From assembly GCA_020435995.1 (NCBI GenBank), contig JAGQYO010000024.1:1-49351 (forward strand): DNA of 49,351 nucleotides. Reading direction: 5' to 3'. The notes beneath the pieces were generated by a model. That model searched no databases. It was not told the DNA's origin and saw only the letters and a list, made by a program, of their open reading frames with translations. Each line of letters opens with the position of its first letter. Position 1 is the first letter of the stretch. Shown here one piece after another: positions 9,859 to 49,351 of this stretch. The position numbers and the translations under genes are program-made. Source of the DNA: Flavobacteriales bacterium (GTDB taxonomy: Bacteria; Bacteroidota; Bacteroidia; Flavobacteriales_G; Salibacteraceae).

Positions 9859-10290
9859 ATGAACAGCTCCCTAAAAGTCTCCCAAAGCATAGAAATAAAC
9901 GCTTCGCCAGCAGCAATTTGGGATACCATGACGAATCCCGAAAAAATAAAAGTTTACCTATTTGGCACTGAAACCATTACCGATTGGAAGGTGGATAGTC
10001 CCATCGTTTTTCAAGGAAATTACGAAGGACATGTGTACAAAGACAAAGGAAATGTACTGGAGGTAACGGAGAATGAACTCCTCAAATACAACTACTGGAG
10101 CAGTATGTCGGGCACTGAAGACAAAATTGAAAACTACTTTATTGTCACTTACATTGTTGAAGCCATCGGTACAAACAAGGTGAAGTTTACATGGCAACAA
10201 GAGGGTTTTCCGTCAGAAGAAAAAAGGCAGCACACAGCGCAAGGACTCACGACTATGTTAGAACATATTAAAAAAGTGGCAGAAGGCTAA
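9859..10290 (+). CDS. SRPBCC (START/AHSA1-like) domain protein
   Basis: 143 aa single-domain protein. The opening VSQSIEINASPAAIWDTMTNPEKIKVYLFG is split across the typical SRPBCC first strand and helix, and the end (TAQGLTTMLEHIKKVAEG) is the long C-terminal helix. Such domains form a hydrophobic cup that binds lipids or aromatic ligands, or act in stress response; the ligand here cannot be told from sequence. It is cytoplasmic, with no signal peptide. It stands alone, 83 nt after the broken secreted gene. Confidence 0.85.
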   Translation: MNSSLKVSQSIEINASPAAIWDTMTNPEKIKVYLFGTETITDWKVDSPIVFQGNYEGHVYKDKGNVLEVTENELLKYNYWSSMSGTEDKIENYFIVTYIVEAIGTNKVKFTWQQEGFPSEEKRQHTAQGLTTMLEHIKKVAEG

Positions 10291-10332
10291 AACTTTAGCG
10301 ACATTTGTTTGTCATTCATTAAAACTTAAATT

Positions 10333-10830
10333 ATGGCTCAGATAACATTAAAAGGCAATAAAATTAACACTATTGGGAGTTTACCTGAAATAGGTTCAAC
10401 TGCAAAAAATTTTGAATTGACAGCACTTGACTTGTCTACTAAATCATTAAAAGATTTCGCGGGTAAAAAACTCATTTTAAATATTTTTCCAAGTATTGAT
10501 ACAGGTACTTGTGCGGCTTCGGTAAGAAACTTTAATAAAGAAGCTGCTGGCTTGAAAAACACAACCGTGCTTTGTATTTCAAGGGATCTTCCATTTGCTC
10601 AAAATCGATTTTGTGGAGCTGAGGGCATCGAAAACGTGGTCATGCTTTCGGATTTTAAAATGGGGCAGTTTGGTAAAGATTATAAACTAGAAATATTGGA
10701 AGGTCCCTTAGCTGGCTTGCACTCTAGAAGTATTGTTATTCTTGATGAAAATGGTAAAGTGACCTATACCGAGCAAGTAGCTGAAACGATTGATGAACCA
10801 AATTATAGGGCGGCGTTGGCTAGTTTATAA
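10333..10830 (+). CDS. tpx: Thiol peroxidase
   Basis: 165 aa, an atypical 2-Cys peroxiredoxin of the Tpx family that reduces hydrogen and lipid peroxides with thioredoxin. The peroxidatic cysteine is Cys60 in SIDTGTCAASVR, with the resolving cysteine Cys94 in QNRFCGAEG, matching E. coli Tpx Cys61/Cys95. An additional Cys81 lies in TVLCISRDLP. The start ATG 10333 gives the standard N-terminus (MAQITLKGN). It is probably a single-gene unit. Confidence 0.95.
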   Translation: MAQITLKGNKINTIGSLPEIGSTAKNFELTALDLSTKSLKDFAGKKLILNIFPSIDTGTCAASVRNFNKEAAGLKNTTVLCISRDLPFAQNRFCGAEGIENVVMLSDFKMGQFGKDYKLEILEGPLAGLHSRSIVILDENGKVTYTEQVAETIDEPNYRAALASL

Positions 10831-10918
10831 TTTTTCGAACATAATGATACTGTTCATCACATGCTATTGTTCGTAAACAAAGGGTTATTGCATTAGGTCA
10901 AACCATAATATTGCACTA

Positions 10919-11554
10919 ATGAAAAAACTAAGAAATGCGGCAGCCCTCCTTCTAATCTTAGGTTTGGCTTTAAAGTTCAAGCATTACCCAGGAGGTTCAG
11001 TGAGTTTGATAATTGGCGCTTTTTCGTTGGGCGTTTTTGGGTTTATTGAATTCGGCAGAAATTTAAACAAGAATCTTAGTTTGAGTTTTTTAAATCTGTC
11101 TATGGGTATTCTTTGCATTTCATTGCTTTTTAGAGTTCAATTTTATCCCGGTGCACTTACACTTTTTTATGTCGGGTTGCTTTCTTCTATTGCATGGCTC
11201 ATCCTCATGGTTGGGAATCAGGTAAAACCAAAAATTAGAGATGGAATTATGCTTGTGTTTGTTGGATTTTGCATCTGGCTATCTTTTGTACCCACTCATA
11301 AAGTTCATTATTTTGTTTCAATGACAGAATTCTTAAACTCCGAATACCGAGACAAAGATTACTGGGGTTGGGACAAACAAAGTTGGTTTTTGTATTTGGA
11401 TGAAAAATATGAAGAAGCCGAAGAAGCGAATAACAAAGCCTTAAGGGCTATTGAGCTGCATAAGAATGGAATTCCATTTAGTGAACCTGAAATGGAAGTC
11501 ATGATAAATCTACACGGCGAAAAAATTAAGTCGCGAACTTGGGATACATTCTGA
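10919..11554 (+). CDS. Membrane protein with two GldL-like hairpin motifs
   Basis: 211 aa, not a named family that I recognise. About five hydrophobic segments lie within residues 5-125, followed by a ~85-residue soluble, charged tail (EEAEEANNKALRAIELHKNG). Two segments carry a repeated pattern, LALKFKHYPGG and LLFRVQFYPGA, each followed by a hydrophobic helix. This resembles the FKxxHWPGA hairpin of the gliding/type IX motor protein GldL and related Bacteroidota membrane proteins (inference). A role in motility is not implied by context. Confidence 0.7.
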   Translation: MKKLRNAAALLLILGLALKFKHYPGGSVSLIIGAFSLGVFGFIEFGRNLNKNLSLSFLNLSMGILCISLLFRVQFYPGALTLFYVGLLSSIAWLILMVGNQVKPKIRDGIMLVFVGFCIWLSFVPTHKVHYFVSMTEFLNSEYRDKDYWGWDKQSWFLYLDEKYEEAEEANNKALRAIELHKNGIPFSEPEMEVMINLHGEKIKSRTWDTF

Positions 11555-11579
11555 TGTTGAGTTTTAATTTAAATAATTC

Positions 11580-12563
11580 ATGCCTCAAAAAATAGCTGTT
11601 ACTGGAGCCAGTGGGCATATAGGAAACGTGGTTTGCCGCGAGCTCATTAAAAGAGGACATGAGGTGCGCGCGCAATACCATTCGGATGCTCGCGCACTCG
11701 AAGGCCTGAGTTTGGAATTATTCCAAGGCACGGTACTCAACAAAGATGATTTAGCTATCCTACTCGAAGGCTGCGATTTTGTAATTCATTGCGCGGCTAT
11801 TATCTCCATCAATGGCGACAAATCTGGAATCGTATTCAAAACAAATACGGAGGGTCCCGCAAACGTGCTAAGTGTGGCCATCGAAAAAGGCCTAAAAAAG
11901 ATGGTTCACGTAAGCAGTGTACACGCAGTTGAAGACCTGCCCCATCACACCCCCTATGATGAGCTGCGGCCCTATAAAAAACAGGGTGCCTTTGCCTACG
12001 ATTTTTCGAAAGCTACTGGCGAGCAACTTGTTTTGAATAATTCGAAAAACAAAGACATCGAAGTAGTGGTTGTGAGGCCTAGCTGTGTGGTTGGTCCATA
12101 CGATTTTAAACCCTCTAAAATGGGCGGCGCACTGTATGATTTCTCACGTCAAAAATTACCAATTGTACCCCACGGCGGATACGATATTGTTGATGTGCGA
12201 GAGGTAGCTAATTCTGCGTGCAACGCCATTGCAAATGGAAAAAACGGCGAAGTGTATTTGTTGGCTGGGCGGTATCACAGTTTTAAGGAATTGGTAAAAA
12301 TCATCCATAATATTCAGGGCGTTAGTCGGCCTATTCTGGTCACACCTGTTTGGGTTTTGTATCTGGCCCTTCCCTTCGCGTGGCTTTATAGCCAAATAAT
12401 GGGCAATGATGCCGTTGTTACCATGGAATCCATTACTGCTATTAGAGATGGACATCCACAGATGAACCACGCCAAAGCCAAAGTCGAACTCGGGCATTCA
12501 CCAAGGCCCATTTCGGAAACACTTTCTGACCTTTTTGAATGGATCAAATTTCAGCGTAAATGA
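11580..12563 (+). CDS. NAD-dependent epimerase/dehydratase (extended SDR, 3-beta-HSD-like)
   Basis: 327 aa extended short-chain dehydrogenase. The nucleotide motif TGASGHIG is at residues 8-15, the catalytic Ser at 112/113 (HVSSVHAV) and the YxxxK pair at Tyr140/Lys144 (YDFSK). A hydrophobic stretch near the C-terminus (VWVLYLALPFAWLYS) suggests membrane contact, as in 3-beta-hydroxysteroid dehydrogenase-like members. The stop overlaps the next start by 4 nt (ATGA), coupling it to the 5-alpha-reductase-like gene. Substrate is unknown; a sugar-nucleotide epimerase is the alternative. Confidence 0.85.
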   Translation: MPQKIAVTGASGHIGNVVCRELIKRGHEVRAQYHSDARALEGLSLELFQGTVLNKDDLAILLEGCDFVIHCAAIISINGDKSGIVFKTNTEGPANVLSVAIEKGLKKMVHVSSVHAVEDLPHHTPYDELRPYKKQGAFAYDFSKATGEQLVLNNSKNKDIEVVVVRPSCVVGPYDFKPSKMGGALYDFSRQKLPIVPHGGYDIVDVREVANSACNAIANGKNGEVYLLAGRYHSFKELVKIIHNIQGVSRPILVTPVWVLYLALPFAWLYSQIMGNDAVVTMESITAIRDGHPQMNHAKAKVELGHSPRPISETLSDLFEWIKFQRK

Positions 12564-13321
12564 GTGCCGAAGCCCTTTATTATTTAATCTATTGCTGGAT
12601 CGGCATTGCCATCGCCACCCACGTGCTTTTGTACTTTGTGAAAGCCCCATTCGGCAGGCATACTTCTAAAAAATGGGGACCGAGTATCAACAACAAATGG
12701 GGCTGGTTTTTTATGGAATTGCCCTCGTTAAGTATCATGGTGTTCTTCCTCGTCAAAAGCCTCAGAGTACCAGAATCATTTGTGTGGATTCTGTTTTCAC
12801 TTTGGATTATACATTACTTCAACCGAACGTTTATATATCCGCTGCGAATTAAAAATACTGAAAAAAAAATGCCGCTGTTTATCGTTTTCAATGGCATCTT
12901 TTTTAATGTAATCAACGCAGGAACCAACGGCTACTTCCTGGCAGAGATTGGGCCTATGCTTTACACCGAAAATTGGCTATTCAGTCCTCTATTTGTAGTT
13001 GGTTTGCTTTTCTTCGTTACGGGCATGTCCATCAATTTAAAGTCGGACAATATGCTTATAGGGTTACGGAAAAAAGGTGAAACGGGGTATCAAATTCCTC
13101 GTGGTTTTTTGTTCAAGTACATCTCCTCCCCCAACCTATTTGGTGAAATAATAGAGTGGACTGGGTTTGCCATTATGGCTTGGAACCTTCCAGCGCTGGG
13201 ATTTGCTGTTTGGACTTTTGCGAATTTGGTGCCGCGTGCACTTAACCACCACGATTGGTACCAATCCCATTTTTCCGATTATCCAAAAGATCGGAAGGCG
13301 GTTTTTCCATTCATTTTATAA
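12560..13321 (+). CDS. Steroid 5-alpha-reductase-like membrane protein
   Basis: 253 aa, about six to seven hydrophobic segments. The C-terminal region carries the 3-oxo-5-alpha-steroid 4-dehydrogenase pattern: INLKSDNMLIGLRK, then YQIPRGFLFKYISSPN, FGEIIEWTGFAI and a terminal HHDWYQSHFSDYPKDRKAV. This family reduces C=C bonds of steroids, polyprenols or very-long-chain enoyl-CoA using NADPH. Translation is coupled to the upstream SDR, which suggests the two act in sequence on one lipophilic substrate (inference). It converges on the POT transporter gene with only 9 nt between stops. Confidence 0.85.
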   Translation: MSAEALYYLIYCWIGIAIATHVLLYFVKAPFGRHTSKKWGPSINNKWGWFFMELPSLSIMVFFLVKSLRVPESFVWILFSLWIIHYFNRTFIYPLRIKNTEKKMPLFIVFNGIFFNVINAGTNGYFLAEIGPMLYTENWLFSPLFVVGLLFFVTGMSINLKSDNMLIGLRKKGETGYQIPRGFLFKYISSPNLFGEIIEWTGFAIMAWNLPALGFAVWTFANLVPRALNHHDWYQSHFSDYPKDRKAVFPFIL

Positions 13322-13330
13322 AGAAAGGCC

Positions 13331-14683
13331 TTACTCAGGTTCAACAAACATAGGCGGGTTTTCCACCTCCTCTGCCCCGTGAGTTAATGCCTTCAGTTTT
13401 TTCACTAGAATAAAAATCAAAATCCCAACGATTAAACAAGCGAGAGCAATTATGCCGAACGTCACCATCTCACCCGACTTTTGAGCAAATACCCCAAGCA
13501 TACTTGCGGCTTTGTTTCCCAATCCTGTAATCGCAAAATAGGTTCCCATCATCAGACTTGCGTATTTGGCAGGGGCCAATTTGGTAATGAATGAAAGGGC
13601 CACCGGAGAAATGCTCAACTCAGCAACCACGTGCAGGAAGTAAGAAAATAATAGCCAATAAATCGGTGCCTTTCCTATCATGTTGATAGACGCATCGTAA
13701 ACTGCTCCCATCAGTGCCAAAAAACTAACACTCATGATGATCATACCCACGGCCATTTTGAATACAGCCGACGATTCTTTACCCATATTACCCCATTTGA
13801 GCCAAAGCCAAGCCATGGGAGCGCCAATGAGCACCACATAAAAAGCATGAAGCGACTGAAACCAACTGGTAGGAATTTCATAGCCAAAAACAAAGCGATC
13901 TACACTGTCGCGGGCGTAGAGGTTCATAAGCCCTCCGGCCTGCTCATAAGCCGCCCAAAAAACAATAACAATCAGGAACGAAATAAGTAAAACGATCACA
14001 CGGTCTTTTTCGAGTTTCGTAAGGGGCTGTGTGGCCAAATGGGCTTCGGTAGGCGATTGCTTGAGCAGGTTACCTACATCTTTTAAGTGCTTTCCCCCAA
14101 ATACAAAAACCAGTTGGCCGATAATCATCCCAAACCCAGCAAGAGAAAAGCCTAAATGCCAGTCCACTTTTTCACCGAAATAGCCCACAAGCAAAGGTGC
14201 CGCAAGAGCGCCAATGTTAATTCCGATGTAAAACAAGGTAAATCCCGCATCCCGCTTGGCATCGCCTTTTTTGTAAAGCCCACCAACCATGGTGCTAATA
14301 TTTGGCTTTAATAAGCCAACTCCGCACACGAGCAAAACAAGTCCTGAATAAAACATGGCCAAGCTGTCAACGGTAAGAGCAAATTGCCCTAGGATGATAA
14401 GAAGGCCACCAAAAATGACGGCCTTTTTTTGGCCTAGCCATTTATCGGCAGCCGCACCACCAAAAATTCCCATAAAATAAACCATCATGCCATAAGTTCC
14501 GTACAGCGACAAGGCCTCCGAACTCGTCCAACCCAACCCAGGATTGATTAAATCTGTGGTTTCGGCAGTGAGGTACAACACCAAAATGGCACGCATACCA
14601 TAGTAGGAAAAACGCTCCCATAGCTCTGCAAAAAATAAAACAAATAATCCCTTGGGGTGACCTAAAACTGTGTCTTGCTGCAT
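13331..14683 (-). CDS. POT-family proton-dependent oligopeptide transporter
   Basis: 450 aa, about 12 transmembrane segments, inner membrane. The POT signature ELWERFSYYG (residues 20-29, ExxERFxYYG) for proton coupling is intact, and a second family motif lies near GFTLFYIGINIGALAAPLL. These carriers import di- and tripeptides with protons. The start ATG 14683 gives the usual short cytosolic N-terminus. It is transcribed alone, convergent with the 5-alpha-reductase-like gene and divergent from the helicase gene. Confidence 0.93.
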   Translation of the reverse strand: MQQDTVLGHPKGLFVLFFAELWERFSYYGMRAILVLYLTAETTDLINPGLGWTSSEALSLYGTYGMMVYFMGIFGGAAADKWLGQKKAVIFGGLLIILGQFALTVDSLAMFYSGLVLLVCGVGLLKPNISTMVGGLYKKGDAKRDAGFTLFYIGINIGALAAPLLVGYFGEKVDWHLGFSLAGFGMIIGQLVFVFGGKHLKDVGNLLKQSPTEAHLATQPLTKLEKDRVIVLLISFLIVIVFWAAYEQAGGLMNLYARDSVDRFVFGYEIPTSWFQSLHAFYVVLIGAPMAWLWLKWGNMGKESSAVFKMAVGMIIMSVSFLALMGAVYDASINMIGKAPIYWLLFSYFLHVVAELSISPVALSFITKLAPAKYASLMMGTYFAITGLGNKAASMLGVFAQKSGEMVTFGIIALACLIVGILIFILVKKLKALTHGAEEVENPPMFVEPE

Positions 14684-39849: not shown

Positions 39850-40224
39850 CTACTTTTTAGGTCTTTTAGCTCCGTACTTTGATCGTCTTTGCGTTCTACC
39901 TTGAACACCCGCAGTATCTAAGGCACCTCTTACGATGTGATATCGCACTCCTGGCAAATCCTTAACTCTACCTCCTCTTACAAGAACAATAGAGTGCTCT
40001 TGAAGATTGTGTCCTTCTCCTCCAATATAAGAGTTCACCTCGTTTCCGTTAGTTAACCTAACACGGGCTACCTTTCTCATGGCAGAATTCGGTTTTTTTG
40101 GTGTAGTGGTGTACACCCTTACGCATACGCCTCGTCTTTGAGGACATGCATCCAAAGCAGCGGATTTACTTGTCTTAATCTTGCTCTGTCTTCCCTTTCT
40201 AACTAATTGCTGAATAGTGGGCAT
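39850..40224 (-). CDS. rpsL: 30S ribosomal protein S12
   Basis: 124 aa, decoding-centre protein. [20 protein letters not shown] at the start; [20 protein letters not shown] with Lys43/Lys44 and [14 protein letters not shown] both keep the residues that are changed in streptomycin-resistant mutants, so the protein looks drug-sensitive. First gene of the 33-gene ribosomal cluster, with a promoter at 40285-40315. Confidence 0.98.
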
Positions 40225-40496: not shown

Positions 40497-43400
40497 TTAT
40501 TCAATCTGCCTTTCCGCTAGCTTAAAAAACTTGCCTTTTAATGCCATCAACTCTTCGTAAGAACCGCTTTCTATAAGCTCTCCCGCCTCAAGGTAATGAA
40601 TAGTATCTGCATTAATAATGGTAGACAACCTATGTGCAATTACAATTCTTGTTACATTAAGATTGTCTAAGCTAGCAGTTACAATGGCCTGAGTTTCATT
40701 ATCTAGTGCACTGGTGGCTTCGTCAAAAATCAAAATTTTTGGTTTGTGAACCAATGCCCTAGCTATCATTAGCCTTTGTTTTTGCCCTCCTGAAAGTGTT
40801 CCTCCCTCTTCATTCACAATGGTGTGCATACCCATCGGGAATGACCTTACATCTTTATCAAATGCAGCAGCTCGAGCAGCGGCCCATGCATCTTTAAGGG
40901 TTAAGTACGCCGAGGAACCAACTATATTGGTATAAATATCACCCGACATTAAATCACCATCTTGCAGCACAACCCCCATATTTCGACGAATCATTTTTGG
41001 ATCGTAATGATCCATATCTTGTTTATCATAATACAAGGAACCTGATTCGGGTTTACTGAAGCCTAGGAGCAACCTTATCAAAGTAGATTTACCACTACCC
41101 GATGGCCCAACCAAGGCCACATACTCACCGCTTTTTATTGATAAGCTCAAGTTTTTTATCGTAAGTGGCGCATCTTCTTTGTACCTGAAATTAATGTTGT
41201 TAATTTCTATAGCCCCGGTAAACTTAGTAGGTGCTTCTTTTTGGGTTTCACATTCTGGTTTTGTTTCAAGGATTGGTCTTAAGCGGTCGTAAATTACCGG
41301 CAGTTGTAACATTTGAATAAGAGCACCACTCATTCCTACAATGGCCCCAACAAAAGCACCATAAGCTGCTAAGAACGCGAAGAATTGTCCTGTGGTTAAA
41401 TTATTACTGGTAGTTTTCACTATAATAAAGATGAATACAGTTGAAAGCAGCCCCAATAATGAGTTCAGTATAGTTTGTGCATTTTGCAACTTGGCTAAGT
41501 CAATGCTCACCGATTTGCTGGACATAAATGATTTAAACCAGTATAAAAAAGCTCTCGATTCCGCGCCACTTGCTCTAAACCTAGCAATACCATTTAATAT
41601 TTGGAATGCAATACCCGACAACTTTCCATTCTGCTCCATCAATACCTTTTGGAGTTTTAGTTGACTTCTGGCAAACAAACCAATAATTGTAATTTGCAAT
41701 AAACTGAATGCTATTGCCAACATAGCGAGGTTTACATTATAATATAGTAAGAGACCTAAATTCAATACAGAAAAAGCCAATGCAAGAACCGAGGCAATTA
41801 CAGCGCCCGAAACAATACTTTTCATTTGGTTTATTCCCATAGACCGAGATGCCAAATCACCGGTGGTGTATTTGGTAAAGAAGTCACTAGGGAGATTAAG
41901 CAACCTATCCCAAAGAGCAGATTGCGCCTTATAATCCAACCTATTTTGAGCCCTCATTAGAGCATATTGTTTCACCAAATCGAAGCCAACTGTACCAAAA
42001 GAAATGGCCAAAAGGGCAAATGCAATGTTCAATAGTTGCTGCTTGTCGGCACTGGGAATAACAAAATCAAATATCTGGGCCGTTAAAATCGGGAAAAACA
42101 ACATGAGAACTCCACCCGCTAGCCCCATCCCAAATACCCTTAAGAGGTCAATTTTATTTTTATCTATTGTAAATAATAAAATATCCTTTAATGTGACAGT
42201 TTTATCAGCGTCAAAGGGTCGGTAAAAAACAAATGCTTCTTGCTTGAACATCGAAGCGTTTTCCGCATTTACTTTCTGAATTTCCTTTGTTCGTGGGTTT
42301 ATAAACGAAAGACTTCCTTTGTGGGGAATAATTGCAATCGGCTCGTTCTCTTCATTATTAAGGTAGGCCAAAAAAGCATCCTCATTGTTCGTGGTGTACC
42401 AAGAAGGCTCGAGAAGCACCTCTCGATACCTCAACCCATTATATCTGCAAATTTCAGAAAGCCAGTCTTCATTTTCTGAATACCCTTTTGGAAACACAAT
42501 CGACATTTTTTCATATTGCAACACCATTGAAAGGGCGTTAAAAACATGATCCGTAGTGTCAAAATCTACTTTGAGGTTTGTATCCTTCTGAAAAACTTGA
42601 GAAAATGACTTAAGCGAATTGGCAAAGTCCTCTTTTTCAAGTGTATATTTTTTAATTAAACGGTTTGTTTCGGCAGAAACCCTATTTTTTATCTCATAGG
42701 CATCGCTCTTAAATATCTGGGTTGAAAGCTCTCTTAGTCCAGACCAAAACCCTTCCCGCTCAATAATATCCTCTGACTTAAAAGCCTCAATTTTTGCATT
42801 TCCTTCTAATGTCAAATAAGATCTTACCCCAAGTGGGAAAAAAATATGTTCAAAATCGATTTCGAGATGACGGTTAAACTTGCATTTCTCAGCATCGTAA
42901 ACCTTCACCCACATGAAGGCACGATTGCCTACTACTGAATTGCCCATATAAAAATAACAGCGATCAAACCCTAAAAAATCGTGAATAACAGGCGTCTGTA
43001 CGCTCGTATCATCAGCAACACCTTCATAAAGTCTATTAACCCACTTTTCAATAAGTGCAATTACCTCATCTTTAAATTCCGCATCTTTGCTTAGCTCTTT
43101 TAAATCGGTTAGGGTTAAATCAATAAAAACAGATTCAACTTCGGCATCTACAAGAAAGCATAAATTATTCTCGGAGCTAATGTCTCCTCCAATAACCAAT
43201 TCGCCTTTTTCTAAAGTTGTAAAATTATCAAGGCGTCCGTAGGCTTCCCCACTAACAACTTTGGTGGTAGATAAATTAACGCTTCCATCAAGGATGAAGT
43301 ACACCTTATCTGGGTCATCGGCCAAAAAAGGATCAATAACTGACTGAACCCTCTCCGTTCCGCGCCTTCTAAACTCTAGTATTAATGGGTTAATATCCAA
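40497..43400 (-). CDS. NHLM-type ABC transporter 2 with N-terminal cNMP-binding-like region
   Basis: 967 aa. Residues 1-~150 (VIDPFLADDPDKVYFILDG, then DISSENNLCFLVDAEVES) resemble a cyclic-nucleotide-binding/cupin-type beta roll without an evident nucleotide phosphate-binding motif. A ~250-residue linker follows, then six membrane helices (from ~430) and a complete ATPase: Walker A GPSGSGKST (765-773), signature LSGGQ (869-873), Walker B ILIFDE (889-894), switch His923. It lacks a C39 peptidase. The layout matches the second ABC protein of NHLM peptide-export systems, which probably pairs with the C39 transporter encoded 5 nt upstream. Last gene of the export operon; no clear terminator follows, only a T run. 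Confidence 0.88.
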   Translation of the reverse strand: MDINPLILEFRRRGTERVQSVIDPFLADDPDKVYFILDGSVNLSTTKVVSGEAYGRLDNFTTLEKGELVIGGDISSENNLCFLVDAEVESVFIDLTLTDLKELSKDAEFKDEVIALIEKWVNRLYEGVADDTSVQTPVIHDFLGFDRCYFYMGNSVVGNRAFMWVKVYDAEKCKFNRHLEIDFEHIFFPLGVRSYLTLEGNAKIEAFKSEDIIEREGFWSGLRELSTQIFKSDAYEIKNRVSAETNRLIKKYTLEKEDFANSLKSFSQVFQKDTNLKVDFDTTDHVFNALSMVLQYEKMSIVFPKGYSENEDWLSEICRYNGLRYREVLLEPSWYTTNNEDAFLAYLNNEENEPIAIIPHKGSLSFINPRTKEIQKVNAENASMFKQEAFVFYRPFDADKTVTLKDILLFTIDKNKIDLLRVFGMGLAGGVLMLFFPILTAQIFDFVIPSADKQQLLNIAFALLAISFGTVGFDLVKQYALMRAQNRLDYKAQSALWDRLLNLPSDFFTKYTTGDLASRSMGINQMKSIVSGAVIASVLALAFSVLNLGLLLYYNVNLAMLAIAFSLLQITIIGLFARSQLKLQKVLMEQNGKLSGIAFQILNGIARFRASGAESRAFLYWFKSFMSSKSVSIDLAKLQNAQTILNSLLGLLSTVFIFIIVKTTSNNLTTGQFFAFLAAYGAFVGAIVGMSGALIQMLQLPVIYDRLRPILETKPECETQKEAPTKFTGAIEINNINFRYKEDAPLTIKNLSLSIKSGEYVALVGPSGSGKSTLIRLLLGFSKPESGSLYYDKQDMDHYDPKMIRRNMGVVLQDGDLMSGDIYTNIVGSSAYLTLKDAWAAARAAAFDKDVRSFPMGMHTIVNEEGGTLSGGQKQRLMIARALVHKPKILIFDEATSALDNETQAIVTASLDNLNVTRIVIAHRLSTIINADTIHYLEAGELIESGSYEELMALKGKFFKLAERQIE

Positions 43401-43405
43401 CTTCC

Positions 43406-45610
43406 TTACATTTTTATTAAGTGAGAATATTTACCATTGAGCTTCACCAAATCTTCATGCGTGCCTCTTTCAATGATATGTCCTTGGTCGAGAACAATAA
43501 TTTCGTCACTATCTCTAATGGTACTCAACCGATGTGCTACGACTACTACTGTACACTTTCGTTTCTTAATATTTGTATCTATTTCTAATTCAGTAGTGGG
43601 GTCCAAGGCGCTTGTTGCTTCATCAAGTATTAATATGGATGGATCGTTTACGAGTGACCGAGCTATTTCAACTCGTTGTCTTTGCCCACCACTAAAGTTT
43701 TTTCCACCCTCACTTATCACATAATCATATCCGCCACTTTTGGTGTTAATGATGTCGTGAATCGCCGAGTCTTTACAAGCACTTATTAACTGTGCATCAG
43801 TGATGCTTCGATCCCAAAGGGTAACCACGTCTCTCACACTACCTTCATACAGGAAAATTTCCTGAGAAACCATGGACAGGGAATTATTCATAACTTGTCT
43901 GGGCCACTCTGAGCGGGGCTTTCCATCGAACAATATTTCGCCCTCCCAAGGCTCGTAAAAACCGATCATTAGTTTGGCTAAAGTAGATTTTCCACTTCCC
44001 GAGCCTCCAACAAATGCAATACGTTCGCCTGGGTTAATTTTTAAGGAAAAATTTTCGATTAACGGAGGTGCAACTTTAGAATACCCAAAGGTTATATTCT
44101 TGAATTCGACATAACCTTCGAGCTTCGTAGAAACAATTTCTAAATTTTCTTCAGTAACCTTAACCGCTCTGCCCACCTGCTTATCAACGTCAGATTGCAT
44201 AACATCATCAATTCGATTCATATCACCCTCCATTTTCTGAAGTGTACTGCCCAAATTCAATAAGCTACTTATTGGAGCTGAAAAGCTTATCACCAAGCTT
44301 TGAAATGCAACTAACATTCCCACAGTTATTTCACCGCTCATAATCTTCCACGCGCCTAGGGTTAAAATAACTGAACTCTGCAGAATACTTAGAGATCTGG
44401 GTAACAAAGCAAATCGGCTTTCAAACAACTGCAAATGCACCAATTGATTAAAAACTTTGGTGAAATTCCCACTCCATTTTACGAAAAAATCATTTTCGCG
44501 CCCCATTGCTTTTAGGGTTTCGATAGACTTTATTCCTCCAAGCGTGGTACCGTAGAGTTTACCTCTTGAAACTGAAAGTGCAAAGTATTTTTCGATTCGG
44601 ACTCGGCCTATTAATTTTAGAGATCCAATATTTAATGCAGCGAATGATAACGCAATGATCGAAAGCGTTACATCATAACTGAGCATTAGAATAAAGTAGA
44701 ACAAGACAACTAATAAATCAAGTAAGTTTTGCGCAAATTGTCCCGTAATAAGTGCAGCTATCCCTCTGTTTAAGCCAACTCTACTAGCAATTTCTCCTTT
44801 ATCTCGTTGATGAAAAAATTGGATGGGAAGTTTCAAAAGGTGCCAAAAATATTGAGCAGAAGTAACAACTTCCAGTTTATTTTTTGCTTTGAGCAATACA
44901 CTGAGTTTGAGGTGTTGAAGCACACCCCTAAGAATGGCGGTAAGCATCATGCCTCCCACTAAGGGCCACAACCAGTGTTCTGCTTTTCCGATTAATATTT
45001 CATCAACAAATATTCTTGAAAATACGGGGATTACGAGGCCAGGAATTACGAGAAACAAACCGACCAAGAAAAGATACAATATAGTTTTTTCGTATCCCTT
45101 TAATCTCGATTTCAACCCTGAAATTAGATTCCCATCCTTTCCAGTTTTTTCAAAATTTGGTCCTGGCGAAAATTCAAGGGCAATTCCTGTAAATGATCCA
45201 TTAAACTCTTCAAAATTTAAAACCCTATGACCAATTGCGGGATCACTCAAATAAAATTTTCCATTTTTAATGCCTTCAAGCACCAAAAAGTGGTTGAAAT
45301 TCCAATGAATAATCAAGGGAAAGTTCATTTCAAGCAACTCATTGACCGACTCGATCTTAAACCCTTTACCTTCAAGCCCGTGTTTTCGAGCTGCTTTTAG
45401 TACATTAATAGCCTTACTTCCGTCCCTGTTTACACCACAATCTTCGCGAAGCAATTCTAAAGTTTGGTGCCTGCCAAAGTAGGCCAAAACCATTTTTAAG
45501 CTAGCCGCCCCGCATTCAACGGCTTCAAGTTGAATCACCGAATTGGTTCTCGCCTTAGCCTTTGACGAATTCCAAAGTAACTTTTCTTCTTTTGTGGGTT
45601 TTCCTGCCAT
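43406..45610 (-). CDS. C39-peptidase ABC transporter (NHLM ABC1-type) for double-glycine peptides
   Basis: 734 aa. An N-terminal C39 cysteine peptidase has its catalytic set in LEAVECGAAS (Cys33), HWNFNHFLVLEG (His107) and LSDPAIG (Asp123). Six membrane helices occupy ~160-460. The ATPase has Walker A GGSGSGKST (535-543), signature FSGGQ (639-643) and Walker B ILILDE (659-664). It would cut leader peptides after Gly-Gly and export the rest across the inner membrane. Two matching substrates are encoded upstream (48624-48845 and 49250-49351). Six nt from the adaptor gene, five from the second ABC gene. Confidence 0.93.
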   Translation of the reverse strand: MAGKPTKEEKLLWNSSKAKARTNSVIQLEAVECGAASLKMVLAYFGRHQTLELLREDCGVNRDGSKAINVLKAARKHGLEGKGFKIESVNELLEMNFPLIIHWNFNHFLVLEGIKNGKFYLSDPAIGHRVLNFEEFNGSFTGIALEFSPGPNFEKTGKDGNLISGLKSRLKGYEKTILYLFLVGLFLVIPGLVIPVFSRIFVDEILIGKAEHWLWPLVGGMMLTAILRGVLQHLKLSVLLKAKNKLEVVTSAQYFWHLLKLPIQFFHQRDKGEIASRVGLNRGIAALITGQFAQNLLDLLVVLFYFILMLSYDVTLSIIALSFAALNIGSLKLIGRVRIEKYFALSVSRGKLYGTTLGGIKSIETLKAMGRENDFFVKWSGNFTKVFNQLVHLQLFESRFALLPRSLSILQSSVILTLGAWKIMSGEITVGMLVAFQSLVISFSAPISSLLNLGSTLQKMEGDMNRIDDVMQSDVDKQVGRAVKVTEENLEIVSTKLEGYVEFKNITFGYSKVAPPLIENFSLKINPGERIAFVGGSGSGKSTLAKLMIGFYEPWEGEILFDGKPRSEWPRQVMNNSLSMVSQEIFLYEGSVRDVVTLWDRSITDAQLISACKDSAIHDIINTKSGGYDYVISEGGKNFSGGQRQRVEIARSLVNDPSILILDEATSALDPTTELEIDTNIKKRKCTVVVVAHRLSTIRDSDEIIVLDQGHIIERGTHEDLVKLNGKYSHLIKM

Positions 45611-45616
45611 CAGAAT

Positions 45617-46858
45617 TTATTCAACTAAAGGAAGTATTAAGCTAATTGGCCTTTTGTTTTTAATTATAATCTTTGAACTACAGAGGGTTCCCGATTTTAT
45701 TTCAACTTCCGGCCCATCGCCCGAAGTCCATTCGTAGCCACTGCTGTTGTTCTCGTCAACATTTAGTGCTATTCTCACCGCTATCGGAGGCATTCCCGTA
45801 AAAAATGATTGTACCAACTCTTTGTTTTGTAAGGTATTCATCATCCCATCAAAGGTGGCCGGATACTCTGATACTTGAATCACTTTACCTTTTATGTAGC
45901 CAAATTTCTCCACTTCTACGGTAGAGGGTGAGAGTTTAACTTCCATTCCTTTTTTAATTTTCTTTCCTTCGCTCGGCCCAACATATACCACTCCTTCTAC
46001 CAACTCCTCCGCATCATCCCGTTCCATACTCAGGATGTATTTACCAGGGCTCACAATGCTTCCTGCGTTTACCATTAATTCTACAATGTACCCAGTATAT
46101 GGACTCGTAATTTCAGAATTAAGGTCATACCTAGCTTGTAGTTCTCCCAATTCTCCACTAAGTGCAATGATTTGTCCGTCTAAATTGTTCAGTTCAATTT
46201 CAATTTCTTTCGAAAGCTCGAATACCTTAAGTTGGAGCTCTTCCAATTCATTCTCAAGGGCCAGGTTTTGCTGTTCTAACTCAAATAATAATATTTTGCT
46301 TTCGTTAAGCTTTTCAGTGGTAATTAGTCCTTTTTGTTGAAGTTCTTCTCTGGCTTCAATTTGGGACCTTACAAAAACCATTCGCTCAATGTTCTTTTCG
46401 ATCCTTTTTTGTTTGTTCTCGGCATTTTGAGTGAGGATAGCTTTTTGAAGTTCAAGGTCCTTTTTATCATATGCTTTGATGGTGTTGTACTTGGTTTGTA
46501 AATGAAGTAATTGTTGTTCTACGTTATTTATTTTTAGAATTAACTCAGGCTGACCAATTTTGGCTAGCACATCTCCTTTTCTTACCTTGAGTCCAGGCTT
46601 CACGAGCACCCTAGTTACTTGTCCATTGGCGATTGCTGGAACTTCCATTACCCCTCCTGATTTGAGCAAAATTCCATTTCCACTTACGTTTATTGGCAAC
46701 CTCCCAAAAACACTCCAAATAATAAAAAATACCAATAGGACAGCCACAGATAATACAGCTATCCAATTACTTGGAGAAATTGTTCGCACCATTTCATTCA
46801 ATCGATCAGGCGATTGCAATTTGTCTATGGCATCTTTCCTAAAAAGATCATTATTCAT
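45617..46858 (-). CDS. HlyD-family periplasmic adaptor (NHLM-type)
   Basis: 413 aa. A short cytosolic N-terminus (SPDRLNEMVRTISPSNW) precedes one membrane helix (~31-51). Then comes the first lipoyl half (VMEVPAIANGQVTRVLVKPG), a long coiled coil (~125-260, Glu/Lys/Leu-rich), the second lipoyl half (ITSPYTGYIVELMVNAGSIV) and a beta-barrel region. The pattern of N-terminal segment plus GNGILLKSGGVMEV fits the NHLM HlyD group. It links the ABC pair to an outer-membrane channel, here the TolC-like protein whose gene it overlaps by 8 nt. Confidence 0.92.
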   Translation of the reverse strand: MNNDLFRKDAIDKLQSPDRLNEMVRTISPSNWIAVLSVAVLLVFFIIWSVFGRLPINVSGNGILLKSGGVMEVPAIANGQVTRVLVKPGLKVRKGDVLAKIGQPELILKINNVEQQLLHLQTKYNTIKAYDKKDLELQKAILTQNAENKQKRIEKNIERMVFVRSQIEAREELQQKGLITTEKLNESKILLFELEQQNLALENELEELQLKVFELSKEIEIELNNLDGQIIALSGELGELQARYDLNSEITSPYTGYIVELMVNAGSIVSPGKYILSMERDDAEELVEGVVYVGPSEGKKIKKGMEVKLSPSTVEVEKFGYIKGKVIQVSEYPATFDGMMNTLQNKELVQSFFTGMPPIAVRIALNVDENNSSGYEWTSGDGPEVEIKSGTLCSSKIIIKNKRPISLILPLVE

Positions 46859-48461
46859 TTTGAGCGCTTATTTTGGGTAGAGTAAATATTTCTTCTACAT
46901 CGATTATTATTTTATTGTCTTCAGAAAAAGAAACCAAGCTTCCAGACTCGTATCTAAACTGAATAACAGCTGAATTTAAAGCAAGTAAATACCTGTTGAG
47001 CGAGGTTTGGGCAAATGCGTAATTATTTTGAACCTGAACTAAATTAACCACAGTAGAAGTTCCCAATTGCAATTTGATATATTCGTTTTGTCTTGCTTGA
47101 AGGTTGAAAGCAACCGATTGGGTGCTTTGTTTTACAGCGGTATTATAATTAATGATGTTGGTATAACTTGTGGCCAGTTGCTGCTCTATATTAAGCCCAA
47201 GACTTCGCAAATACTCCTCATTTGTTTGCTTTTGAGCTAGGGATGAAGCCAAATAACCTTTCGTGGATTTTTGCCCCATAGGCCATGAAAAAACCAAGCC
47301 CGCCCTGTAGCTTACTCCAGGTATATTCGAATAAATCGGCGCGTAATATTGATCGGCCGTATTGGATTCATAAATTCCGTGATACCCCATTCCTAAACTA
47401 AAATCAAGTCGAGGCTGATTTTGTTGCTCAGCGAATTCTATATCACGGCTTCTTGATGCTATTCTTTTTTGCGATGCCAAATAGTCACCCCTAGATGTCT
47501 TTGACTTTTCCAACCATGCACTTAAATATGCATCAGGAATCTCTTCAAGTAGCGAGTCCAACCCAAAATCTAAATTTCCCAAATCTAGTTTGCTTTGCTC
47601 CGAATAAGGCAATCCCATTGATTCTACTAACCTGTTCTTGGCTCTTATGTATTCAGATTCTGAGCGCTTTACTACTGCCCCTTGTGAGGTAACATTTGCG
47701 TTAATAAAAGTCAGTTCGGATCTCGGAATTACGTCCTTATCCGAAAGCATTTTAAGTTGCTCGGCAAAATCCACAAAATTCTTCTCAATTGATTTTTGAA
47801 TATCCAAATCACGCTTTGCAGAAACTACATTTAAATAATTGAGCAAGACCAAATAGGCTTGGTTACTTACATTATAGGTGTACTCCAACTCCGCCGCCGA
47901 AAGATTTAGTTGTTCAATCTCTAAATTAGCTCCATAGTACTTTTTACCAAATCCTTGTAACAGCGGTTGAGTAACATCTATAAATACATTACTTCGACTC
48001 GTAATAAATTCTCCAACTCCAGCATTTACAAGGTTATCAAACAATGCATCACGGCCATTATTATTTAATTGAATCGATGGTCGAATAAGTGTTCCGGTTT
48101 GAAACCTTTTTGATACCGCAATACTGTAGTCAAAGAGGTCGGCCTCATAAGATTGCTCTGGTTTATATCCCAAATACCCTTCTCGAATGGCAATGTTATT
48201 CGGAATCTTATCAAGAGATTTATTGATTCCAATATCCAGCGTTGGGTTAAACTGACCTTGAAACTGCGTTACCCTTCCTGCCTGATAATCAACTTGAAGC
48301 TTGCTAATCTTAACACTTGGACTTTTTTCGAACGTAATCTCCATTACCTTTTGCAAGGAGGAGTTTTGAGCGGATAAATTTCCTTGTCCAACGCTAATGA
48401 CCGCTAAGCCAAGCCAAAACACATTTAATGATGAAGGAACATCAATAAATTTATATCTCAT
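46851..48461 (-). CDS. TolC-like outer-membrane efflux protein
   Basis: 536 aa from ATG 48461; a TTG nine bases upstream is open too but less likely. A signal peptide is visible (LNVFWLGLAVISVGQGNLSAQ, split before Gln). Two OEP repeats follow with typical segments (VDYQAGRVTQFQGQFNPTLD, VTQPLLQGFGKKYYGANLEI, GLVFSWPMGQKSTKGYLASS). It would form the trimeric outer-membrane duct for the export complex. First gene of the operon with hlyD and the two ABC genes. A -7 element lies at 48508-48515. Confidence 0.92.
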   Translation of the reverse strand: MRYKFIDVPSSLNVFWLGLAVISVGQGNLSAQNSSLQKVMEITFEKSPSVKISKLQVDYQAGRVTQFQGQFNPTLDIGINKSLDKIPNNIAIREGYLGYKPEQSYEADLFDYSIAVSKRFQTGTLIRPSIQLNNNGRDALFDNLVNAGVGEFITSRSNVFIDVTQPLLQGFGKKYYGANLEIEQLNLSAAELEYTYNVSNQAYLVLLNYLNVVSAKRDLDIQKSIEKNFVDFAEQLKMLSDKDVIPRSELTFINANVTSQGAVVKRSESEYIRAKNRLVESMGLPYSEQSKLDLGNLDFGLDSLLEEIPDAYLSAWLEKSKTSRGDYLASQKRIASRSRDIEFAEQQNQPRLDFSLGMGYHGIYESNTADQYYAPIYSNIPGVSYRAGLVFSWPMGQKSTKGYLASSLAQKQTNEEYLRSLGLNIEQQLATSYTNIINYNTAVKQSTQSVAFNLQARQNEYIKLQLGTSTVVNLVQVQNNYAFAQTSLNRYLLALNSAVIQFRYESGSLVSFSEDNKIIIDVEEIFTLPKISAQNE

Positions 48462-48507
48462 AAATAACAACTGTTGAGGGAAGGGGTGTTAACATCCTTC
48501 AACCAAC

Positions 48508-48569: not shown

Positions 48570-48600
48570 AAAAAAAAAGGCCCCAACTAATTGAGGCCCT
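48570..48600 (-). terminator. Terminator after peptide gene 1
   Basis: Minus-strand stem GGCCTCAA / TTGGGGCC with loop TTAG (one U-G pair), followed by nine T. It lies 26 nt after the peptide stop, so the peptide and export operon are separable transcripts. Confidence 0.85.
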
Positions 48601-48623: not shown

Positions 48624-48845
48624 TTATCTCGCAGCTCCGCGACCTGAATCCATTTCATGAGGATTTCCACCTTCATGACCTAACTCTTGCTCTCCTGCGT
48701 GTGGGTCTTTATGCTCATCTTCCTTTCGCATTTCGTCCATTGAACCATCAACTCCGGCGTCTCTTCCGTCGTTTCTTCCCATTGACGCACCACCGCTTAC
48801 ATTCTCTAATTGCTCTTCGTTGAGCTCGCTTCTATTTTCTGACAT
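48624..48845 (-). CDS. Double-glycine-leader secreted peptide precursor, copy 1
   Basis: 73 aa. Residues 1-19 (MSENRSELNEEQLENVSGG) are a clear double-glycine leader of the L-x4-LExVSGG type, expected to be cut after Gly19 by the C39 peptidase encoded downstream. The 54-residue core has ten Gly, seven Asp, seven Glu, four His and four Met, no Cys, no aromatic and hardly any hydrophobic residues; net charge is about -7 without His. Such a core is unlike pore-forming bacteriocins and carries no obvious lanthipeptide or disulfide sites. A second copy lies upstream (49250). I do not recognise the family; function unknown. Confidence 0.85.
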   Translation of the reverse strand: MSENRSELNEEQLENVSGGASMGRNDGRDAGVDGSMDEMRKEDEHKDPHAGEQELGHEGGNPHEMDSGRGAAR

Positions 48846-48875
48846 AATAAATAAGTTTTAAAAAGTTTTACAGGT

Positions 48876-48883
48876 CAAACATA
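48876..48883 (-). promoter_or_regulatory. -7 element for peptide gene 1
   Basis: Minus-strand TATGTTTG, a perfect TAnnTTTG match, 30 nt upstream of the peptide start; predicted leader ~25 nt. Identical to the octamer before the export operon. Confidence 0.6.
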
Positions 48884-49196
48884 GGGTAATTATTGTGTTA
48901 ACTTAAAAAAGTAATGCGCCATATACACGAAAACATTGTTTTCTGTGATGAAATACAACATATTGGGTATGAACCATTTTCACAGTTTTTTCTTTTCTTT
49001 ATATTATCCCTTGCTGCGACTTCAAAAAGAACCATTGTTTGATAAATGTTTGATCGGAGACAGCTGATCATGTTGGACTCCTTAATAACTTTACAATAAT
49101 CAAAGTCAACACCCGAATATAAGGAACCAAACAGTTTCATACAAGTGGATAAGTAAAAACCAAGTCGCTTCGCAAGAAACGTAAAATATAGGGCAT

Positions 49197-49223
49197 AAAA
49201 AAAGCCCCAATCATTTGAGGCTT
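49197..49223 (-). terminator. Terminator after peptide gene 2
   Basis: Minus-strand stem GCCTCAA / TTGGGGC with loop ATGA (one U-G pair), then seven T. It is a close relative of the copy-1 terminator, in the same position relative to the stop. Confidence 0.8.
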
Positions 49224-49249
49224 CATTTCAATTGAATTGAAATTCAATA

Positions 49250-49351
49250 TTATCTCGCAGCACCGCGACCTGAATCCATTTCGTGTGGGTTTCCACCTTC
49301 ATGACCTAATTCTTGCTCTCCTGCGTGTGGATCTTTGTGCTCATCTTCTTT
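49250..49351 (-). CDS. Double-glycine-type peptide precursor, copy 2 (C-terminal part, cut by window edge)
   Basis: The last 33 codons plus stop of a second peptide gene; its leader lies beyond base 49351. The reading (KEDEHKDPHAGEQELGHEGG and on to SGRGAAR) is identical in protein to residues 41-73 of copy 1. The DNA differs at eight positions in 102 nt (codons for Gly, His, Pro, Asn, Glu, Asp, His and Lys), all silent. It was therefore not noticed as an exact DNA repeat, and the protein sequence must be under strong constraint or has been kept alike by selection. Confidence 0.85.
   Translation of the reverse strand, partial: KEDEHKDPHAGEQELGHEGGNPHEMDSGRGAAR

Follow-up and report, generated by a model that had tools for sequence, protein, structure and literature searches.

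Analysis of the window, a stretch of 49,351 nucleotides which is contig C124 in the 3.76-Mb draft assembly (G000) of a marine-type Flavobacteriales member, revealed a tandem array of small peptide genes in which the C-terminal 33 codons carry the signature of strong purifying selection, and which form one cassette with an export operon between pcrA and rpsL. Copy 1 lies on the reverse strand at 48624–48845 and, as defined by its open reading frame and by alignment, encodes a 73-residue precursor comprised of a Gly-Gly (GG) leader, MSENRSELNEEQLENVSGG, and a mature peptide, ASMGRNDGRDAGVDGSMDEMRKEDEHKDPHAGEQELGHEGGNPHEMDSGRGAAR, of 54 residues with no Cys and a pI of 4.8. The window holds the 3′ end of copy 2 (33 codons and the stop, 49250–49351, reverse strand), with the remainder located on contig C176 (L004 2–169), the start of which matches the end of the window exactly over 49 bases. 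When read across this overlap, copy 2 encodes 73 residues with a full GG leader, and is followed on C176 by a third copy of 69 residues, also with a leader (L004 570–779, reverse strand). Beyond copy 3 is a pcrA/uvrD helicase gene in the opposite direction. The original prediction had called for the copies past position 49351 to be counted and had named a missing leader in copy 2 as grounds for doubt; the extension completed copy 2, added copy 3 and left all three copies with leaders. The array consists of three copies if the contig join, on whose short overlap the copy number depends, is right, and further copies may have been collapsed in the assembly. Copies 2 and 3 differ by four substitutions and a single in-frame 12-base gap, located in the GRDSG stretch, and are the younger pair. 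No GG precursor besides these three copies was found in the genome.

A codon-level alignment bears out what had been read from the window originally: copies 1 and 2 share every one of the last 33 residues, yet their DNA differs there at 8 of 102 bases, each a silent third codon position. These represent 8 changes at 20 silent sites and none at 79 replacement sites, where the probability of all eight random changes being silent is about 1e-5 (3e-6 to 3e-5, varying with transition bias). Across all three copies the block contains nine variable sites, every one a silent third position, and no amino acid change, including in copy 3, the kind of further copy in which replacements had been anticipated as a possible sign of relaxed constraint. 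The data support the strong selection that had been proposed, and the constraint is regional: the stretch immediately after the cleavage site escapes it, with residues 20–40 having a dN of about 0.34 and replacement changes being common there as compared with the C-terminal block (Fisher test, p = 5e-7). Outside the block, silent sites are saturated or near-saturated between copies 1 and 2, in keeping with the earlier view that the duplication is not brand new.

Silent divergence is lower in the 3′ half (dS 0.57) than in the 5′ half, to which gene conversion may have contributed. It is, however, highly improbable that recent gene conversion or assembly chimerism, rather than selection, produced the 33-residue identity. 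This explanation would account for the lower dS, and the contig break does fall within the copies, but conversion makes no distinction between silent and replacement sites and so cannot alone be the source of differences that are silent at nine of nine sites. Moreover, the eight changes that separate copy 1 from copy 2 all lie inside one contig, which excludes chimerism for this pair.

The leader is short and ends in ELNE[ED]QLENVSGG, in which the hydrophobic positions −12 and −7 are Leu and −4 is Val, ahead of the Gly-Gly. It matches several bacteriocin leader models weakly, including Bacteriocin_IIc (E 0.02), TIGR03949 (E 0.002) and the CTB bacteriocin leader model (E 0.0016), and scores 15.5 bits with TIGR01847, for which the cut-off is 15.7. 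The NHLP leader model TIGR03793 aligns with the precursor over its last 22 positions only (12.4 bits against a cut-off of 50.9, E 0.44), and the Nif11 leader model TIGR03798 gave no match to the precursors at E ≤ 1. Relative to the long NHLP leaders, no more than about 19 final residues remain here.

The mature peptide is strongly acidic and very hydrophilic (gravy −1.6), without a hydrophobic stretch, and its C-terminal block includes four His and many Asp and Glu residues. Structure prediction for copy 1 (pLDDT 62, pTM 0.17) produced a helix in the leader only, and the mature peptide is predicted to be unstructured. This acidic, hydrophilic and apparently disordered character argues against a pore former. 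The mature peptides of all three genera in which the cassette was found (G000, G007, and G009; see below) contain no Cys, ruling out chemistry of the lanthionine, sactipeptide, and thiazole types. As had been noted at the outset, the mature sequence belongs to no recognised family, and no match was obtained in any family or genome searched: homologues were absent from genome contigs, viral contigs, and plasmids, none extended past a leader match in 60 relatives, and nothing convincing was found among PDB sequences or with PADLOC. Searches of 395 class and 395 phylum genomes gave no homologue besides marginal matches (E 0.002–0.009), which lie within larger open frames and were judged to be due to chance.

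The export operon lies directly downstream of the peptide genes on the same strand and is comprised of a TolC-type outer-membrane channel (46851–48470; profile match to OEP, PF02321), a HlyD-type adaptor (45617–46858; 345 bits with TIGR03794, NHLP bacteriocin system secretion protein, cut-off 156), an ABC transporter with a C39 peptidase domain, ABC1 (43406–45610; TIGR03796, 992 bits, cut-off 853), and a second ABC transporter, ABC2 (40497–43400; TIGR03797, 808 bits, cut-off 709), all on the reverse strand. The catalytic residues of ABC1, Cys33, His107, and Asp123, are intact and invariant in the three genera, and in a tree ABC1 falls in a clade within the NHLP-type transporters, separate from the family's other C39 transporters. 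Both cassette flanks are conserved, with rpsL at 39850–40224 (reverse strand) and the pcrA helicase gene at L004 996–3329 (forward strand). Modification enzymes (LanM/TOMM), kinases, receptors, and regulators were all absent from the cassettes of the three genera, and no thiol oxidoreductase was found in the cassette. Likewise, no immunity gene was identified in the three cassettes, where the pcrA–rpsL interval has no further conserved gene. An 80-residue open reading frame at 48898–49140, between copies 1 and 2, was dismissed as an immunity gene candidate, since it overlaps the sequence upstream of copy 1 and nothing equivalent lies between copies 2 and 3.

Intrinsic terminators with a 10-pair stem and a T run follow copy 1 (48577–48600) and copy 2 (49201–49224), both on the reverse strand, and the same element follows copy 3 (L004 521–544); four such terminators were found in the region, where 0.8 are expected from shuffled sequences. 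A putative promoter box, TATGTTTG, is located at 48876–48883 (reverse strand), 31–38 bases before the start of copy 1, and this box or its variant TACGTTTG is present 5′ of all three copies, at 37–38 bases from the start codon, and of tolC in this genome. The consensus of the Bacteroidota −7 box is TAnnTTTG, the form of which TATGTTTG and TACGTTTG share, and we infer a promoter role. With a terminator and an upstream box for each copy, the peptide genes look like separate transcription units. The approximately 200 bases 5′ of copies 1 and 2 (window 48846–49050 and L004 170–370) are 72–84% alike and contain TTCATACCCAATATGTTGTATTTC about 100 bases ahead of the start codon, an element not seen upstream of copy 3. 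The stretch containing it is possibly a shared regulatory site.

TIGR03796 was found above its cut-off in 3 of 35 family genomes, and this small sample of known carriers represents three genera: the present genome, G007 (UBA1986, Flavobacteriales, L050), and G009 (L053; the MAG of an uncultured Flavobacteriales member, from run ERR599121). The gene order pcrA–peptide(s)–tolC–hlyD–ABC1–ABC2–rpsL is common to all three, with four paralogous peptide genes in G007 and one in G009, and identities to the window proteins of 61–71% for HlyD and 71–79% for ABC1. The leaders are also alike, and paralog a of G007 scores above the curated cut-off of TIGR01847. The mature peptides, in contrast, are no more similar between genera than shuffled sequences, with one exception at 0.01, the best of eight comparisons of this genome's peptides with those of G007 and G009, and homology between them was rejected. 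The G007 paralogs (L037 4595–6111) have a conserved core of their own, LPDYM..MSK.E..DPDFVGSPEW.E, unlike any family found, in which silent change exceeds replacement change, and terminators were seen by eye after their genes. The proposal that nearly every residue of the C-terminal half matters therefore stands within this genome but does not carry over between genera, where an unrelated mature peptide occupies the same locus. The peptide sequence thus appears to be constrained inside a lineage and replaced between lineages.

In all 14 other family genomes examined the site is empty, rpsL adjoining pcrA with a few hundred bases between them. The closest filled/empty pair is G009 (L038) and the non-carrier G022 (L107), which share 98% identity in EF-G and 96–97% identity in the DNA flanks, with about 9 kb at the site in the former and about 300 bases in the latter. 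By EF-G the three carriers do not group together as a clade, but their order, ((G000,G009),G007), is the same in the ABC1 tree. A history of one old gain followed by several losses fits, and transfer via the conserved flanks is a possible alternative.

Outside the family, the closest relatives of the exporter were found in two Bacteroidales MAGs (L051 and L052, around 10000–13700), with HlyD identities of 45–46%; in both loci HlyD has a C-terminal extension and no recognisable GG precursor is nearby. Another Bacteroidota genome (L047 16627–17959) has several NHLP-leader precursors in a row, with the motif ELxDEQLExVAGGEF, near an NHLP-type exporter.

On the favoured reading, the locus is an accessory cassette that makes and exports a small unmodified peptide. 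Each copy would probably be transcribed separately from its own promoter to its own terminator, the C39 domain of ABC1 would recognise the ELNEEQLENVSGG leader and cut after Gly-Gly, and the cleaved peptide of 50–55 residues would leave the cell through the ABC transporter, HlyD, and TolC. Leader removal and export by the ABC1–HlyD–TolC route is very probable. The reading as a whole draws on the silent-only divergence, the GG leader, the full trio and TolC downstream, and the intact peptidase triad. The C-terminal 33 residues would be the active part and residues 20–40 a tolerant linker. Outside the cell the peptide would most likely act on close relatives as a competition peptide resembling the class II microcins, unmodified, although the chance that this is right is about even. 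Such a role is the best fit because the cassette is patchy and its core is replaced between genera yet rigidly constrained within one, because a conserved exporter and leader serve unrelated mature peptides, and because the site is empty in the other genomes. Against it, none of the three cassettes has an immunity gene, the acidic, hydrophilic, Cys-free and predicted unstructured peptide is unlike typical membrane-active bacteriocins, and patchy distribution with multiple copies also suits other secreted functions.

The main alternative, which is rather unlikely, is that the same export and maturation yield a lineage-specific pheromone or cell-to-cell signal whose receptor is encoded elsewhere. 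The GG-leader/C39 route exports signals in other bacteria, and the missing immunity gene, the soluble, charged and predicted unstructured peptide, and the pairing of a conserved leader with cores that differ between genera would all be explained; several near-identical copies, each with its own terminator, are nonetheless unusual for a signal, and the cassettes of three genera are devoid of a kinase, receptor, or regulator. Somewhat less probable again is an extracellular peptide with a structural, matrix, or metal-binding role, as might be suggested by the perfectly conserved His- and acid-rich C-terminal block and by multiple copies indicative of high dosage. The G007 peptides contain no His despite the same locus and exporter, and core replacement between genera argues against a single fixed chemical role. 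It is improbable that the peptide is a RiPP modified by enzymes from other loci of the genome: the closest such exporters in Bacteroidota and Cyanobacteria do serve NHLP/Nif11 precursors, many of which are modified, but here the cassette itself has no modification gene in three genera, the mature peptides have no Cys and the precursor has no NHLP domain.

Taken together, these data give a strongly selected orphan peptide both an exporter and a chromosomal site, each well defined, so that in any genome with the site filled the substrate follows directly from the sequence. They also suggest that NHLP-type exporters may work with minimal leaders and unmodified cores, and RiPP mining keyed on modification enzymes would miss such peptides. 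The G009–G022 pair provides a natural test of the role of the cassette. A bolder and decidedly tentative proposal is that, at a fixed pcrA–rpsL site of gain and loss in this Flavobacteriales family, an NHLP-type exporter shed the nitrile-hydratase-like leader domain and modification enzymes, and now secretes unmodified, disordered, Cys-free peptides, swapped over their whole mature length between genera and rigid within one, that constitute a new class of competition or recognition peptides with a non-membrane target.

Haft et al. (2010, PMC2887384) described the trio of TIGR03794, TIGR03796, and TIGR03797 as accompanying precursors of the NHLP and Nif11 types. As in those systems, all three export proteins here score above the curated cut-offs and the precursor leader ends in the same ELxxExLxxVxGG motif; however, the precursors have neither the nitrile-hydratase-like nor the Nif11 domain, their cores are long and Cys-free, and the cassette is without a LanM/TOMM enzyme. 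At four other Bacteroidota loci with an NHLP-type exporter (L045–L048) the precursors carry the long NHLP leader, with TIGR03793 above the cut-off of 50.9 at L045, L047, and L048 and below it, at 43.7 bits, at L046. Judged by these profiles, the cassette is of the NHLP kind in its exporter and not in its precursors. The class II microcins (microcin V type; PMC9746304) share with it a short GG leader, a C39-peptidase ABC transporter, a membrane fusion protein, and TolC, as well as a variable core served by a conserved exporter. The present system differs in that the peptide has no neighbouring immunity gene, the operon includes its own TolC and an additional ABC transporter, and there are one to four paralogous peptide genes. 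Bacteroidetocins (PMC6671954) are likewise found in Bacteroidota, with a GG leader, a C39 transporter, and no dedicated immunity gene, but have disulphide-forming Cys residues, a thiol oxidoreductase, and a 5-TM protein, all of which are absent here. The leader also resembles those of the Bacteriocin_IIc/lactobin-cerein and CTB bacteriocin leader families (PF10439, TIGR03949, NF038167), although the match is confined to the leader and below the cut-offs, and the cores are unrelated. The initial impression of a peptide of no known family holds for the mature sequence, an orphan, and not for the leader and export operon, by which the gene belongs to a known general class: peptides with a GG leader that leave through an ABC transporter with a C39 peptidase.
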